50,328 nt of DNA from an uncultured Gammaproteobacteria bacterium. Its GTDB lineage: Bacteria > Pseudomonadota > Gammaproteobacteria > PS1 > Pseudothioglobaceae. The stretch spans positions 1 through 50,328 of the forward strand of contig CAJXHL010000003.1 in the NCBI GenBank assembly GCA_913054335.1. The letters are read 5' to 3'. How positions within the stretch are numbered: position 1 is the first letter of the stretch; every line of letters begins with the position of its first letter. Positions 30,787 to 33,831 of this stretch are shown piece by piece. Made by a program: the position numbers and the translations under genes. The notes under the pieces were generated by a model, which was given only the letters and a program-made list of their open reading frames with translations, did no database searches and was not told the DNA's origin.

Positions 30787-31721
30787 TGAGCGACCAGTCG
30801 CCTTTATACAATTCTGTTCAATTAGTTACTGTTGACGAGTTTTCGATTGGCCAACGTCTAGATAACTACCTGCTAAAGCAGCTTAAAGGCGTGCCAAAGT
30901 CGCATATTTATCGCCTTATTCGTAAAGGTGAGGTACGCGTTAATAAGGGGCGTAAAAAAGCCGAATATAAACTTCAGACTGGGGACGTTGTTCGAATTCC
31001 ACCCATTCGACTCACAGCTGAAAAGGAGCATAAACCCTCTGTCGGCATGATCGAAACCCTGCACAATTCTATTCTTTATGAAGATAAAGGCTTGATGATT
31101 ATTAACAAAAAAAGCGGTATGGCGGTGCATGGTGGTAGCGGTATCGGTATCGGCATCATCGAGGCCCTAAAAGCAGAATACAAGCATCCAATTGAACTTG
31201 TGCACCGACTTGACCGCGCCACTTCAGGTGTTTTGATTTTGGCGAAAAAACGCTCGGTATTAAAGGCTTTACACGAACAGCTCACGCAACATCAGATGGA
31301 AAAGCGCTACGTTGCTTTGGTGAAGAACTCTTGGAGTAAAAAACGTCATACGGTTGACGCGCCCATTTACCAAAACTCTCGTTATAGTGTGATTGATAGC
31401 AAAGGAAAGGAGTCGCTCAGCCATTTTCACCCGCTGAAGAATTTCCATAATGATGAATTCAGTGCGTCACTTGTTGAGGTGGTGATTGAAACCGGTAGAA
31501 CACACCAAATTCGCGTGCATGCCAAACACGCTGACCATCCAATCGCGCAGGACGATAAATACGGCGATCGTGAGTTTGACGCACAAATGAAAGCCAAAGG
31601 CCTCAATCGATTATTCCTTCATGCCAAGGCGCTTACTTTCACAAACCCTACTACAAATGAAATTCAAAAAGTTTTAGCACCCTTACCAGATGAACTTGAA
31701 GATTTCTTAAGCAAATTATGA
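30786..31721 (+). CDS. rluC: 23S rRNA pseudouridine synthase, RluC/RluD type
   Basis: 311 residues. An N-terminal S4 RNA-binding domain (RLDNYLLKQLKGVPKSHIYRL in two parts, near residues 20-40) is followed by the catalytic domain with HRLDRATSGVLILAK near residue 140, whose Asp is the nucleophile. RTHQIRVHAKHADHPI is conserved near the C-terminus. RluC (positions 955/2504/2580) seems likelier than RluD from domain layout, but the distinction is not certain. It overlaps ubiA by four bases (ATGA). Confidence 0.9.
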   Translation: MSDQSPLYNSVQLVTVDEFSIGQRLDNYLLKQLKGVPKSHIYRLIRKGEVRVNKGRKKAEYKLQTGDVVRIPPIRLTAEKEHKPSVGMIETLHNSILYEDKGLMIINKKSGMAVHGGSGIGIGIIEALKAEYKHPIELVHRLDRATSGVLILAKKRSVLKALHEQLTQHQMEKRYVALVKNSWSKKRHTVDAPIYQNSRYSVIDSKGKESLSHFHPLKNFHNDEFSASLVEVVIETGRTHQIRVHAKHADHPIAQDDKYGDREFDAQMKAKGLNRLFLHAKALTFTNPTTNEIQKVLAPLPDELEDFLSKL

Positions 31722-32560
31722 ACGCCTATTTTCGCCTAATGCGACTTGATAAGCCAGTCGGTATTTACTTGCTGCTGTGGCCAACTTATTGGGCGCTCTT
31801 CCTTGCTGCGGGCGGATGGCCAGATGTTGATTTGCTCATTATATTTACTATAGGTGTTATTGTGATGCGCAGCGCCGGCTGTGTCATTAATGATTATGCC
31901 GATCGTGAAATCGACAAGCACGTTGAGCGCACAAAAAATCGCCCCATTGCTTCGGGCGAAGTTCGTCCTAAAAGTGCTTTGCTGTTGTTTTTCGTATTAA
32001 TATTGTCGGCCTTTGGCTTGGTACTACTGACCAACACCCTGACAATTCAACTGTCTTTTGTGGCAGTTGCACTTGCAAGTTTGTATCCCTTTACCAAGCG
32101 CTGCATTCAGCTACCTCAGTTTGTTCTAGGCCTTGCTTTTGGTATGAGCGTGCTGATGGCATTCAGCGCCCAGACTGGAGAGCTACCACTTTCGGCTTAT
32201 TGGATTTTTGCAGCAAACATTGTCTGGACGCTGATTTATGACACTATTTATGCAATGTCCGATCGTGAGGAAGATCTTAAAATTGGAGTGAAATCCAGTG
32301 CTATTTTATTTGCCAAATATGACCGGATAATTATCGGAATATTGCAAATTTCACTGCTATTAATCTTCTTTAAAATTGGCAATTTATTCGATTTAGGGCT
32401 TTTTTATCAACTTTCTGCATTAATTATTTCGATACTAATGATTTACCACCAGTTTTTAATCAAAAGCCGTAAAAAAACAGCCTGTTTTAAGGCGTTTTTA
32501 CACAATCATTACATTGGTCTGACTCTGTTTGCGGGTATTTTGGTTTCGCTGCCACTCTAG
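31718..32560 (+). CDS. ubiA: 4-hydroxybenzoate polyprenyltransferase
   Basis: 280 residues, integral membrane prenyltransferase of ubiquinone synthesis, attaching the polyprenyl tail to 4-hydroxybenzoate. The two Asp-rich motifs are present: NDYADREIDKHVERT near residue 54 and YDTIYAMSDREEDLKIG near 175, separated by hydrophobic helices. The start overlaps the rluC stop. Presence of ubiA supports a respiring aerobic proteobacterium. Confidence 0.95.
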   Translation: MNAYFRLMRLDKPVGIYLLLWPTYWALFLAAGGWPDVDLLIIFTIGVIVMRSAGCVINDYADREIDKHVERTKNRPIASGEVRPKSALLLFFVLILSAFGLVLLTNTLTIQLSFVAVALASLYPFTKRCIQLPQFVLGLAFGMSVLMAFSAQTGELPLSAYWIFAANIVWTLIYDTIYAMSDREEDLKIGVKSSAILFAKYDRIIIGILQISLLLIFFKIGNLFDLGLFYQLSALIISILMIYHQFLIKSRKKTACFKAFLHNHYIGLTLFAGILVSLPL

Positions 32561-32644
32561 AAATAAATTTGTTGTTATTTTGCAACATTTGAACTATTTT
32601 TTACGTTTTTTGTTGTTTATTTAGCATTTTTTCCTAAAAAAAAC

Positions 32645-32671
32645 TTGACATAGAGTTTTTGCTACTATAAA
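32645..32671 (+). promoter_or_regulatory. strong-looking promoter of the small membrane protein gene
   Basis: Perfect TTGACA at 32645-32650 and TATAAA at 32666-32671 (15-bp spacer). A long A/T-tract region upstream (about 32575-32644) resembles an UP element. Predicted transcription start falls near 32677, at the base of the stem-loop that follows. Confidence 0.6.
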
Positions 32672-32679
32672 AAGTGCAG

Positions 32680-32703
32680 CAATCAACAAATAAATGTTGG
32701 TTG
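32680..32703 (+). promoter_or_regulatory. 5' UTR stem-loop
   Basis: CAATCAACA (32680-32688), loop AATAAA, TGTTGGTTG (32695-32703): nine pairs including one G-U. It would sit at the extreme 5' end of the transcript, as in mRNA-stabilising 5' hairpins such as that of ompA. Stabilisation is inferred. Confidence 0.55.
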
Positions 32704-32727
32704 TCTTTTAACTAAAGGGAGACAAAT

Positions 32728-32949
32728 ATGTTAGATAACGTAATAGGTTGGATAAAGAAAGGAACAGAAGCAGGTGTAGCACTTATCGCATTAGCTGTTG
32801 TTGTTCAGGTAATCTTTGGTACTACTGCTGCATTCCTTCCAGGAGATGTGGTTGGCAATATCACAAGTATAGTTACTGCTCTTGGCGGTGCCAATTTGGT
32901 TGGCTTAGTTGCAGTTGGCTTACTCTACGCCATCTTTACACGTAGATAA
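32728..32949 (+). CDS. small two-helix membrane protein (73 aa), unknown
   Basis: No family recognised. The protein has an amphipathic start (MLDNVIGWIKKGTEAG), a hydrophobic helix (about residues 17-37), a Gly/Ser/Thr-rich turn with FLPGDVVGNIT, a second hydrophobic helix (about 55-69) and a basic end (TRR). No Cys or His; no clear cleavable signal. AAGGGAGA at 32715-32722 is an excellent binding site. It has its own promoter, 5' stem-loop and terminator, so it is monocistronic and probably well expressed. A pilin-, channel- or holin-like structural role is conceivable but unsupported. Confidence 0.75.
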   Translation: MLDNVIGWIKKGTEAGVALIALAVVVQVIFGTTAAFLPGDVVGNITSIVTALGGANLVGLVAVGLLYAIFTRR

Positions 32950-32975
32950 TAACATAAAAGTTACGCAATAAAAAA

Positions 32976-32998
32976 CCCGCTGAAAGGCGGGTTTTTTT
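32976..32998. terminator. bidirectional intrinsic terminator
   Basis: CCCGC (32976-32980), loop TGAAAG, GCGGG (32987-32991), extended by A-tract/T-tract pairing and seven T residues. It serves both the small membrane protein gene and, on the other strand, dapD. Confidence 0.85.
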
Positions 32999-33015: not shown

Positions 33016-33831
33016 TTAAATACCGCGAAGCAATTCGTTAATACCCACTTTAGACCTTGTCTTGGCGTCCACTTGCTTAACAATCACTGCACAATATAGT
33101 GAGTAGCTACCATCTGTAGATGGAAGGTTGCCAGAGACAACCACAGAACCAGCAGGAATACGACCATAAGTCACTTCGCCAGTTGCACGGTTAAAGATTT
33201 TCGTAGATTGTCCAATATAGACGCCCATAGAAATCACAGCGCCTTCTTCAACAATCACACCCTCAACCACTTCTGAACGAGCACCGATGAAGCAATTGTC
33301 TTCAATAATTGTTGGATTGGCTTGTAGTGGCTCTAGAACGCCACCGATGCCAACGCCACCTGAGAGGTGAACGTTTTTACCAATTTGAGCACAAGAGCCG
33401 ACAGTAGCCCATGTATCGACCATTGTGCCAGAATCAACATATGCGCCGATATTGACATAACTTGGCATTAAAACAGTGTCAGAGGCAATATATGAGCCTC
33501 TTCTAGCTGTGGCAGGTGGTACGACACGTACGCCTGCTGCTTGAAATTCTTGTGCAGTTGTATTGGCAAATTTTGAAGGAACTTTGTCGTAGAACTGGGT
33601 GTAACCAGCTTGCATGACAGCATTGTCTTCTAGCCTAAAGGACAGTAAAACAGCCTTTTTCAGCCACTCATTAACCGTCCAATCGCCCACACCTTTTTGC
33701 TCTGCAACTCTGGCTTTGCCTGAATCGAGTAAATGAATCGCTTCTGCGACTGCTTCTCTAACCTCTTTAGGCGCTGAATCAGGGGTAATATGCGCGCGAT
33801 CTTCAAAAGCCGCTTCGATGATGTCCTTCAT
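33016..33831 (-). CDS. dapD: 2,3,4,5-tetrahydropyridine-2,6-dicarboxylate N-succinyltransferase
   Basis: 271 residues, left-handed beta-helix acyltransferase of the succinylase route to diaminopimelate and lysine. Hexapeptide repeats run through residues about 100-220 ([23 protein letters not shown] in overlapping parts, [28 protein letters not shown]), with a helical N-terminal domain before them. A clear extended -10 promoter lies just upstream, next to repeat copy 3. Confidence 0.97.

Follow-up and report, generated by a model that had tools for sequence, protein, structure and literature searches.

A small two-helix membrane protein family with its own expression cassette, shared by bacteria and uncultured viruses

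Introduction

Marine phages carry auxiliary genes derived from their hosts; hli and psbA, both found in cyanophages, are examples. Small membrane proteins with quite different functions are also well described in phages and bacteria: T4 Imm is a small membrane protein of superinfection exclusion, the class II holins are two-helix hairpins of ∼70 residues, and CydX and AcrZ are small subunits or regulators of larger membrane complexes. The channel protein MscL is built, in this order, from an N-terminal amphipathic helix, a first transmembrane helix (TM1), a loop, and a second transmembrane helix (TM2). At the RNA level, ompA is the classic case of an mRNA with a stabilizing stem-loop at its 5′ end. 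Stabilizing 5′ stem-loops of the recA and vacA mRNAs are described in a review (PMC7509114).

Here, we analyze an open reading frame (ORF) for a 73-residue protein in a 50,328-nt stretch of DNA from an uncultured gammaproteobacterium of the Pseudothioglobaceae (contig CAJXHL010000003.1; herein the window). A sequence-only reading of this DNA had proposed that the ORF stands alone and encodes a small membrane protein under a dedicated control cassette. We find the same arrangement in relatives of the gene; what is new is that the gene belongs to a family, unnamed in the libraries tried, that bacteria and uncultured viruses share.

Results

A Conserved Two-Helix Membrane Protein

The ORF at 32728-32949 (+) encodes a two-helix membrane protein, as judged from the ORF call, its relatives, an AlphaFold2 model, and dN/dS. 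It is a real gene under purifying selection: the median dN/dS is 0.19 (range 0 to 0.57) across 196 pairs of equal length with dS between 0.1 and 1.0, from all of which the window copy is absent because it has no partner in this range. It lies between an upstream ORF that we take to be ubiA-like (31718-32560, +) and a downstream ORF that we take to be dapD-like (33016-33831, −), and no metabolic partner points to a pathway.

AlphaFold2 modeling with 84 sequences gave a pLDDT of 90.1 and a pTM of 0.63 (with 16 sequences, the pLDDT was 79), with helices at residues 2 through 30, 41 through 54, and 58 through 71. The model bears out the two helices seen earlier, the second arm of the hairpin being broken into the segments 41 through 54 and 58 through 71. 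The conservation of TM1 is strong and favors no face of the helix (p = 0.44), as is expected if the helix is packed on every side; the conservation of helix 41 through 54 does have a preferred face (p = 0.016). Lys and Arg residues lie close to both ends of the protein and the loop is acidic; the positive-inside rule, which is used to assign the topology of membrane proteins, suggests that both ends are inside.

Structural searches did not place the protein. A single-sequence search of the Protein Data Bank (PDB) with the 73-residue protein gave no match, a profile search gave one match only, at chance level (E = 2.4), and Foldseek searches with the predicted models found no fold match in the PDB; a structure search of BFVD returned a single chance match (E = 8.3). 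There is no matching family in Pfam, NCBIfam, PHROGs, PADLOC, or the PDB, and the earlier remark that no family could be recognized thus holds in the libraries tried. Matches in NCBIfam (E ≥ 0.00025, to unrelated proteins) and in Pfam (E ≥ 0.0038, none over the cut-off) were taken to reflect composition. A literature search of titles and abstract openings did not find a description of the family, and six motif strings of the gene occur in no paper of the literature library searched.

Promoter, Leader, and Terminator in the Window

An A/T-tract region resembling an UP element (32563-32644, +) lies 5′ of the −35 box. It is 80% A+T, compared with 57% window-wide, in agreement with the upstream AT tract of the sequence-only reading. 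Among 59 unique leaders, the T runs ∼27 to 24 and 17 to 14 nt 5′ of the −35 box are mostly kept, as is the A run immediately 5′ of it. The −35 box itself, TTGACA (32645-32650, +), was read in the sequence and recurs in relatives. The −10 region, TATAAAAA (32666-32673, +), contains TATAAA (32666-32671) at a spacer of 15 nt from TTGACA and TAAAAA (32668-32673) at a spacer of 17 nt. Scored against TATAAT, 39 of the 59 unique leaders reach 5/6 at 15 nt and 49 reach 4/6 at 17 nt. Two −10 registers are possible, since leaders without TATAAA carry TAAATT or TAAAAA at 16 to 17 nt; of the promoter proposed earlier, TTGACA stands, and TATAAA becomes one of two candidate −10 elements. A simple promoter scan, which requires a spacer of 16 to 18 nt and a final T, lists neither −10 candidate.

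The likely 5′ end of the transcript forms a stem-loop (32679-32704, +) with z = −2.97; 2 of 200 shuffles are equally stable. The hairpin is thus present as described, although we count ten pairs, including G-U, rather than nine. It is followed by the Shine-Dalgarno site AAGGGAGA (32715-32722, +), read in the sequence as a strong site, and relatives have a purine-rich AGAGGGGAAA or TGGAGAGA at the corresponding position.

Downstream of the ORF, a Rho-independent terminator (32970-32997; no strand assigned) has a stem of 12 pairs, a folding energy of −16.5 kcal/mol, and z = −3.77, and none of 200 shuffles is equally stable, in agreement with the strong terminator of the sequence-only reading. 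A simple terminator scan missed it, probably since A-U pairing absorbs the T run. The stem, with an A tract on its 5′ side and a T tract on its 3′ side, is located 18 nt past the stop of the convergent ORF (33016-33831, −), and because of these two tracts, it may end the convergent transcript as well.

Recurrence of the Cassette in Bacterial Relatives

TTGAC(A/T) is found 61 to 90 nt 5′ of the start codon in all 61 leaders long enough for the test, and a terminator is found 3′ of the ORF in all 55 loci whose downstream sequence extends for 80 nt or more. Tandem pairs are frequent among the genome loci (n = 33). In all 19 pairs from the window's bacterial family, a terminator and a new TTGAC(A/T) separate the copies; the eight alphaproteobacterial-type pairs have gaps of 66 to 87 nt with neither element, and the remaining six comprise five Nitrospina-type pairs and L160.

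The bacterial leader is a covarying 5′ hairpin placed before the Shine-Dalgarno site. In a set of 53 distinct leaders, from which duplicates and N-containing sequences had been removed, the nine-pair stem is paired in 84.6% of cells and seven pairs vary on both sides. The covariation score is 0.351, compared with 0.245 for shuffled data and at most 0.140 for slid partners. The count of pairs changed on both sides is reached by 29 of 500 shuffles, and the number of further pair types does not exceed the shuffles (287 of 500 as high). RNAalifold retains six of the nine pairs. A covariance model of the leader (R1) was searched against 58 genomes. Its 50 matches above 50 bits all end at copies of the gene, and many of these 50 leaders, or near-copies, were part of the model; a further 18 matches fall below 33 bits, one of them again at this gene. 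At the window leader, Rfam gives no match over its gathering scores. As its parts recur in relatives, namely TTGAC(A/T), the terminator, the covarying hairpin, and the R1 matches, the cassette is more than a product of chance.

The second-best R1 match in the window's own genome (L210 1501-1559, −; E = 0.017) precedes an AmtB-like ORF that starts with TTG. Weak R1 matches in relatives precede TctC-like and amino-acid-binding-protein-like ORFs (named by eye). A shared regulon was considered and rejected, the weak matches at all three types of ORF being taken as generic strong leaders.

Distribution in Bacteria

The gene family is patchy yet firmly kept in a few groups. In 95 genomes searched, 48 have a match at E ≤ 0.1, with weak matches only in eight of these (G029, G034, G039, G046, G048, G088, G090, and G093). 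Strong matches (E = 6.6e-11 or better) occur in 40 of 60 genomes of the window's bacterial family and in 25 of 29 genomes of its genus, 21 of the 29 having at least two copies; the window's own genome has a single copy. Going by record titles, further relatives are found in the Nitrospinota (Nitrospinaceae), Opitutales, and Alphaproteobacteria. The homolog search proposed with the original reading therefore yields relatives both within the family and across phyla, and because the coding sequence is conserved over this range, the objection that coding potential might not extend to relatives fails.

Three Thioglobus-type loci analyzed in full (L150, L152, and L154) hold the gene in the same syntenic place as the window (neighbors assigned by eye). 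Within the same family, the genus g2 has a strong match in none of its six genomes (G029, G039, G046, G050, G054, and G057; five are single-contig), a case of natural loss, which indicates that the role is dispensable. The 0.9-Mb genome G090, from the same class, has two distant tandem copies. A profile that includes these copies finds tandem pairs in 52 of the 61 small genomes around G090, which form another group of the class; 51 of the 52 have exactly two matches, and the remaining one has four. The wider profile matches 8 of 369 genomes class-wide; phylum-wide, the narrow profile matches 1 of 398 genomes and the widest profile 3 of 398, two of them marginally.

Two loci have unusual features. 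The relative at L240 (1168-1719) is 183 residues long, with a long Lys/Thr repeat tail after the second helix that sets it apart from the other members seen. On a contig assigned to a Saprospiraceae metagenome-assembled genome (MAG; L165, 1-7842), the gene adjoins ThyX-like, GMP-reductase-like, and isocitrate-lyase-like ORFs (assigned by eye); this contig may be a piece of a phage binned with the MAG.

Copies in Uncultured Phages

Scans of IMG/VR identified 106 contigs with a single sequence and at least 518 with a profile. The viral sample analyzed comprises 99 loci, and DNA similarity divides these into 31 groups. The gene is present in all 99 and in two full copies in none; L063 has a second, broken fragment of it, and L190, counted among the viral loci, looks like a bacterial contig. 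The gene is carried by genuine phage genomes. On the part of the 99 contigs for which neighbors were established, these match the terminase large subunit, tail tube, tail sheath, ribonucleotide reductase, exonuclease, translation repressor, and clamp loader, which identifies the carriers as tailed phages; on our reading, several are T4-like. The position of the gene varies: one phage set has it between nrdA-like and nrdB-like genes, a second has it adjoining the tail tube gene, and others have it next to a cytidyltransferase, terminase, or exonuclease gene; the recurrent neighbors differ between phage groups. A search of 50,697 cultured-phage records gave no match at the sensitivity used, to which the low-complexity filter of BLAST may contribute, and no viral copies of the G090 type were found in the scans.

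In five Nitrospina-type phage groups, the gene adjoins a second small membrane protein of 63 to 69 residues (L192 1502-1699, L193 2489-2683, L194 4122-4331, and similarly L198 and L200); that of L194 has no PHROG match. Some phage contigs have an AmtB-like gene less than 9 kb from the small membrane gene (L054 1238-2389, L073 7883-9046, and also L070 and L076), and L054 has a porin-like gene too (by eye). Since these four are the only ones among the 99 loci, a linkage with AmtB is not general and was set aside.

The motif TATAAATA, which is the T4 late promoter motif, occurs within 200 nt upstream of the gene in 20 of 96 loci; by group, the count is 9 of 31, compared with 253 of 6200 random windows. 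One T4-like set has a different hairpin, with a YGNRAN-type loop, 5′ of the gene. In 22 viral leaders, 90% of cells in the hairpin pair, a value inflated by the preselection of 21 of them with a hairpin filter, which 42 of 97 viral loci passed and which the remaining leader (L059) failed. Their covariation score is 0.617, compared with 0.238 for shuffled data and at most 0.113 for slid partners; two of the five covariation measures, namely the counts of pairs changed on both sides (three) and of further pair types (six), lie within the shuffles (466 and 470 of 500 as high, respectively). The exchange of pair types across the viral hairpin set still remains informative. By eye, most phage groups had a hairpin in the leader. 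The generalization to every viral leader was dropped: as a whole, the folding of the 31 viral leaders is no stronger than that of 168 control leaders from the same contigs (z < −2 in 16% vs. 19%; Mann-Whitney p = 0.047 on z and 0.21 on energy, with mononucleotide shuffles), and the covariation of the T4-like set alone stands.

A viral leader model (R2) was searched on 34 of the 99 loci. Of its 26 strong matches (≥47 bits), 25 lie before the gene, most of them being leaders used in the model itself, and one (L063, 2698) lies before the broken second fragment. On 20 bacterial loci, R2 gave seven weak matches (E = 0.05 to 0.68), all on the leader of the gene; the reverse search, with the bacterial model on 29 loci, also gave seven weak matches, three of them on the leader. 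These cross-matches suggest that the bacterial and viral leader designs are related, by descent or by convergence.

Exchange between Cells and Viruses

A tree was calculated from 142 rows (47 viral and 95 cellular) of 73 columns and is hence weak inside. It needs at least four changes between virus and cell labels on starred branches. Viral set 1 (7 rows, L001/L016 type) joins 17 mostly alphaproteobacterial rows (99/97), and viral set 2 (8 rows, L190-L201 type) joins Nitrospina rows (99/93 for the whole group); by this grouping, each of the two sets has the gene version found in a particular group of bacteria. Viral set 3 (32 rows) has no resolved sister; it shares a group with Thioglobus-type and Nitrospina rows (96/84), and the cellular rows L178 and L179 are nested within the set. 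As far as the tree can be read, the phylogeny shows host-phage exchange for the gene family. This applies to the family and not to the window's own subclade, since that clade (45 rows, 99/96) has no viral row. The bacteria with which the viral sets group are their putative hosts, and transfer probably ran from host to virus.

Discussion

The gene has moved between bacteria and viruses repeatedly and is kept in tandem behind strong signals. Having moved more than once and been kept in tandem copies, it probably does something that both sides need. The role that we consider most plausible, though we put it forward tentatively, is that of an abundant and probably oligomeric inner-membrane protein for envelope upkeep, whose gene phages have adopted for auxiliary use. 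Judging from the promoter and leader signals, the product would be abundant: the cassette would yield large amounts of the 73-residue protein in the inner membrane, with the 5′ stem-loop and the strong Shine-Dalgarno site probably shielding the mRNA. The predicted fold is a helical hairpin, in which a short polar loop connects an N-terminal amphipathic part and TM1 to a second amphipathic segment and TM2. The protein most likely self-assembles, or assembles with its tandem paralog, into an inner-membrane oligomer, and the gene would require no fixed partner gene. The bacterial role would be upkeep of the envelope, for which a passive channel or a membrane scaffold is our guess. Host copies would have been acquired as an auxiliary gene by tailed phages, T4-like phages among them, of at least two host groups and perhaps of a third; these phages would express the copy partly from late promoters, and the membrane would thereby be kept working during progeny production.

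The best-placed alternative, which we nevertheless regard as unlikely, is a superinfection exclusion or anti-phage membrane protein, with which phages would shut out rivals and bacteria would keep a standing protection. Such a role is compatible with a small membrane protein that occurs in both phages and bacteria, patchily among the bacteria and at variable places in the phages, and T4 Imm and its like share the size, the two-helix membrane architecture, and the carriage by phages. However, no profile match connects them to the present family, and exclusion is expected early, whereas the T4-type late motif precedes the gene in part of the phages (the 9 of 31 groups above). The retention of the gene in bacteria is also housekeeping-like, with a fixed syntenic place in the three fully analyzed Thioglobus-type loci, and PADLOC, in which 1 of 30 members matches (E = 0.0094), points to no catalogued defense family.

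Less likely again is that the protein serves a larger membrane complex, as a subunit or as a regulator, and that phages boost the two together. The all-round conservation of TM1 in so small a membrane protein is in line with this, but the neighbors vary between lineages, and the carriers, going by their record titles, include lithotrophs and heterotrophs alike.

We consider it improbable that the protein acts in lysis in the manner of a holin, as a two-helix hairpin whose ends both lie inside and which is used late in the phage, with tame homologs in bacteria. In size and topology, it resembles the class II holins, which share the two-helix hairpin of ∼70 residues in phages; the late promoter motif found in some of the phages fits as well, and a PHROG holin is matched weakly. 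That best match (E = 1.3) is, however, at chance level, and among the 58 of 177 gathered phage neighbors that were scanned, no lysis family appears in the best 25 of 92 families. Unlike a holin, moreover, the gene is kept by bacteria of the window's family in one to three copies with strong promoter signals and under purifying selection, which makes a lethal pore unlikely.

Just as improbable is a small osmotic or mechanosensitive channel in place of MscL: the order of elements is similar and MscL occurs in 0 of 60 family genomes (the window's own genome has no PF01741 match) and in 0 of 61 genomes around G090, but the complementary distribution fails, because 3 of 13 further carrier genomes have both, and in addition genus g2 lacks both, streamlined genomes may drop MscL anyway, no PDB fold matches, and PF01741 is absent from Pfam scans of 16 and 9 members.

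The family is of use as a target because its protein is short and expressible; it also has a defined RNA leader and a link to phages in groups that matter for the marine sulfur and nitrogen cycles. Its leader resembles the 5′ stabilizing stem-loops of recA, vacA, and ompA in having a stem-loop at the likely 5′ end and then a strong Shine-Dalgarno site; in contrast to these, it covaries within one small-protein family and has a separate viral version, and stabilization is putative here. The likeness to hli and psbA of cyanophages lies in a host-like gene carried by tailed phages at varying positions, and in the tree, where two of the three viral sets join particular bacteria; the present gene differs in that it encodes no known enzyme or photosystem part, belongs to no known pathway, and matches no family in the libraries tried. 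A broader proposal, which we hold to be possible but rather doubtful, is that the proteins form an unrecognized superfamily of two-helix membrane proteins, often encoded as tandem pairs, that build an abundant homo-oligomeric or A/B hetero-oligomeric channel or scaffold in the inner membrane of several leading groups of ocean bacteria. Uncultured phages of two or more of these groups would supply a copy of the gene themselves, with its own structured leader, to sustain this structure during infection. Such a superfamily would be the light-independent counterpart of the cyanophage hli genes.
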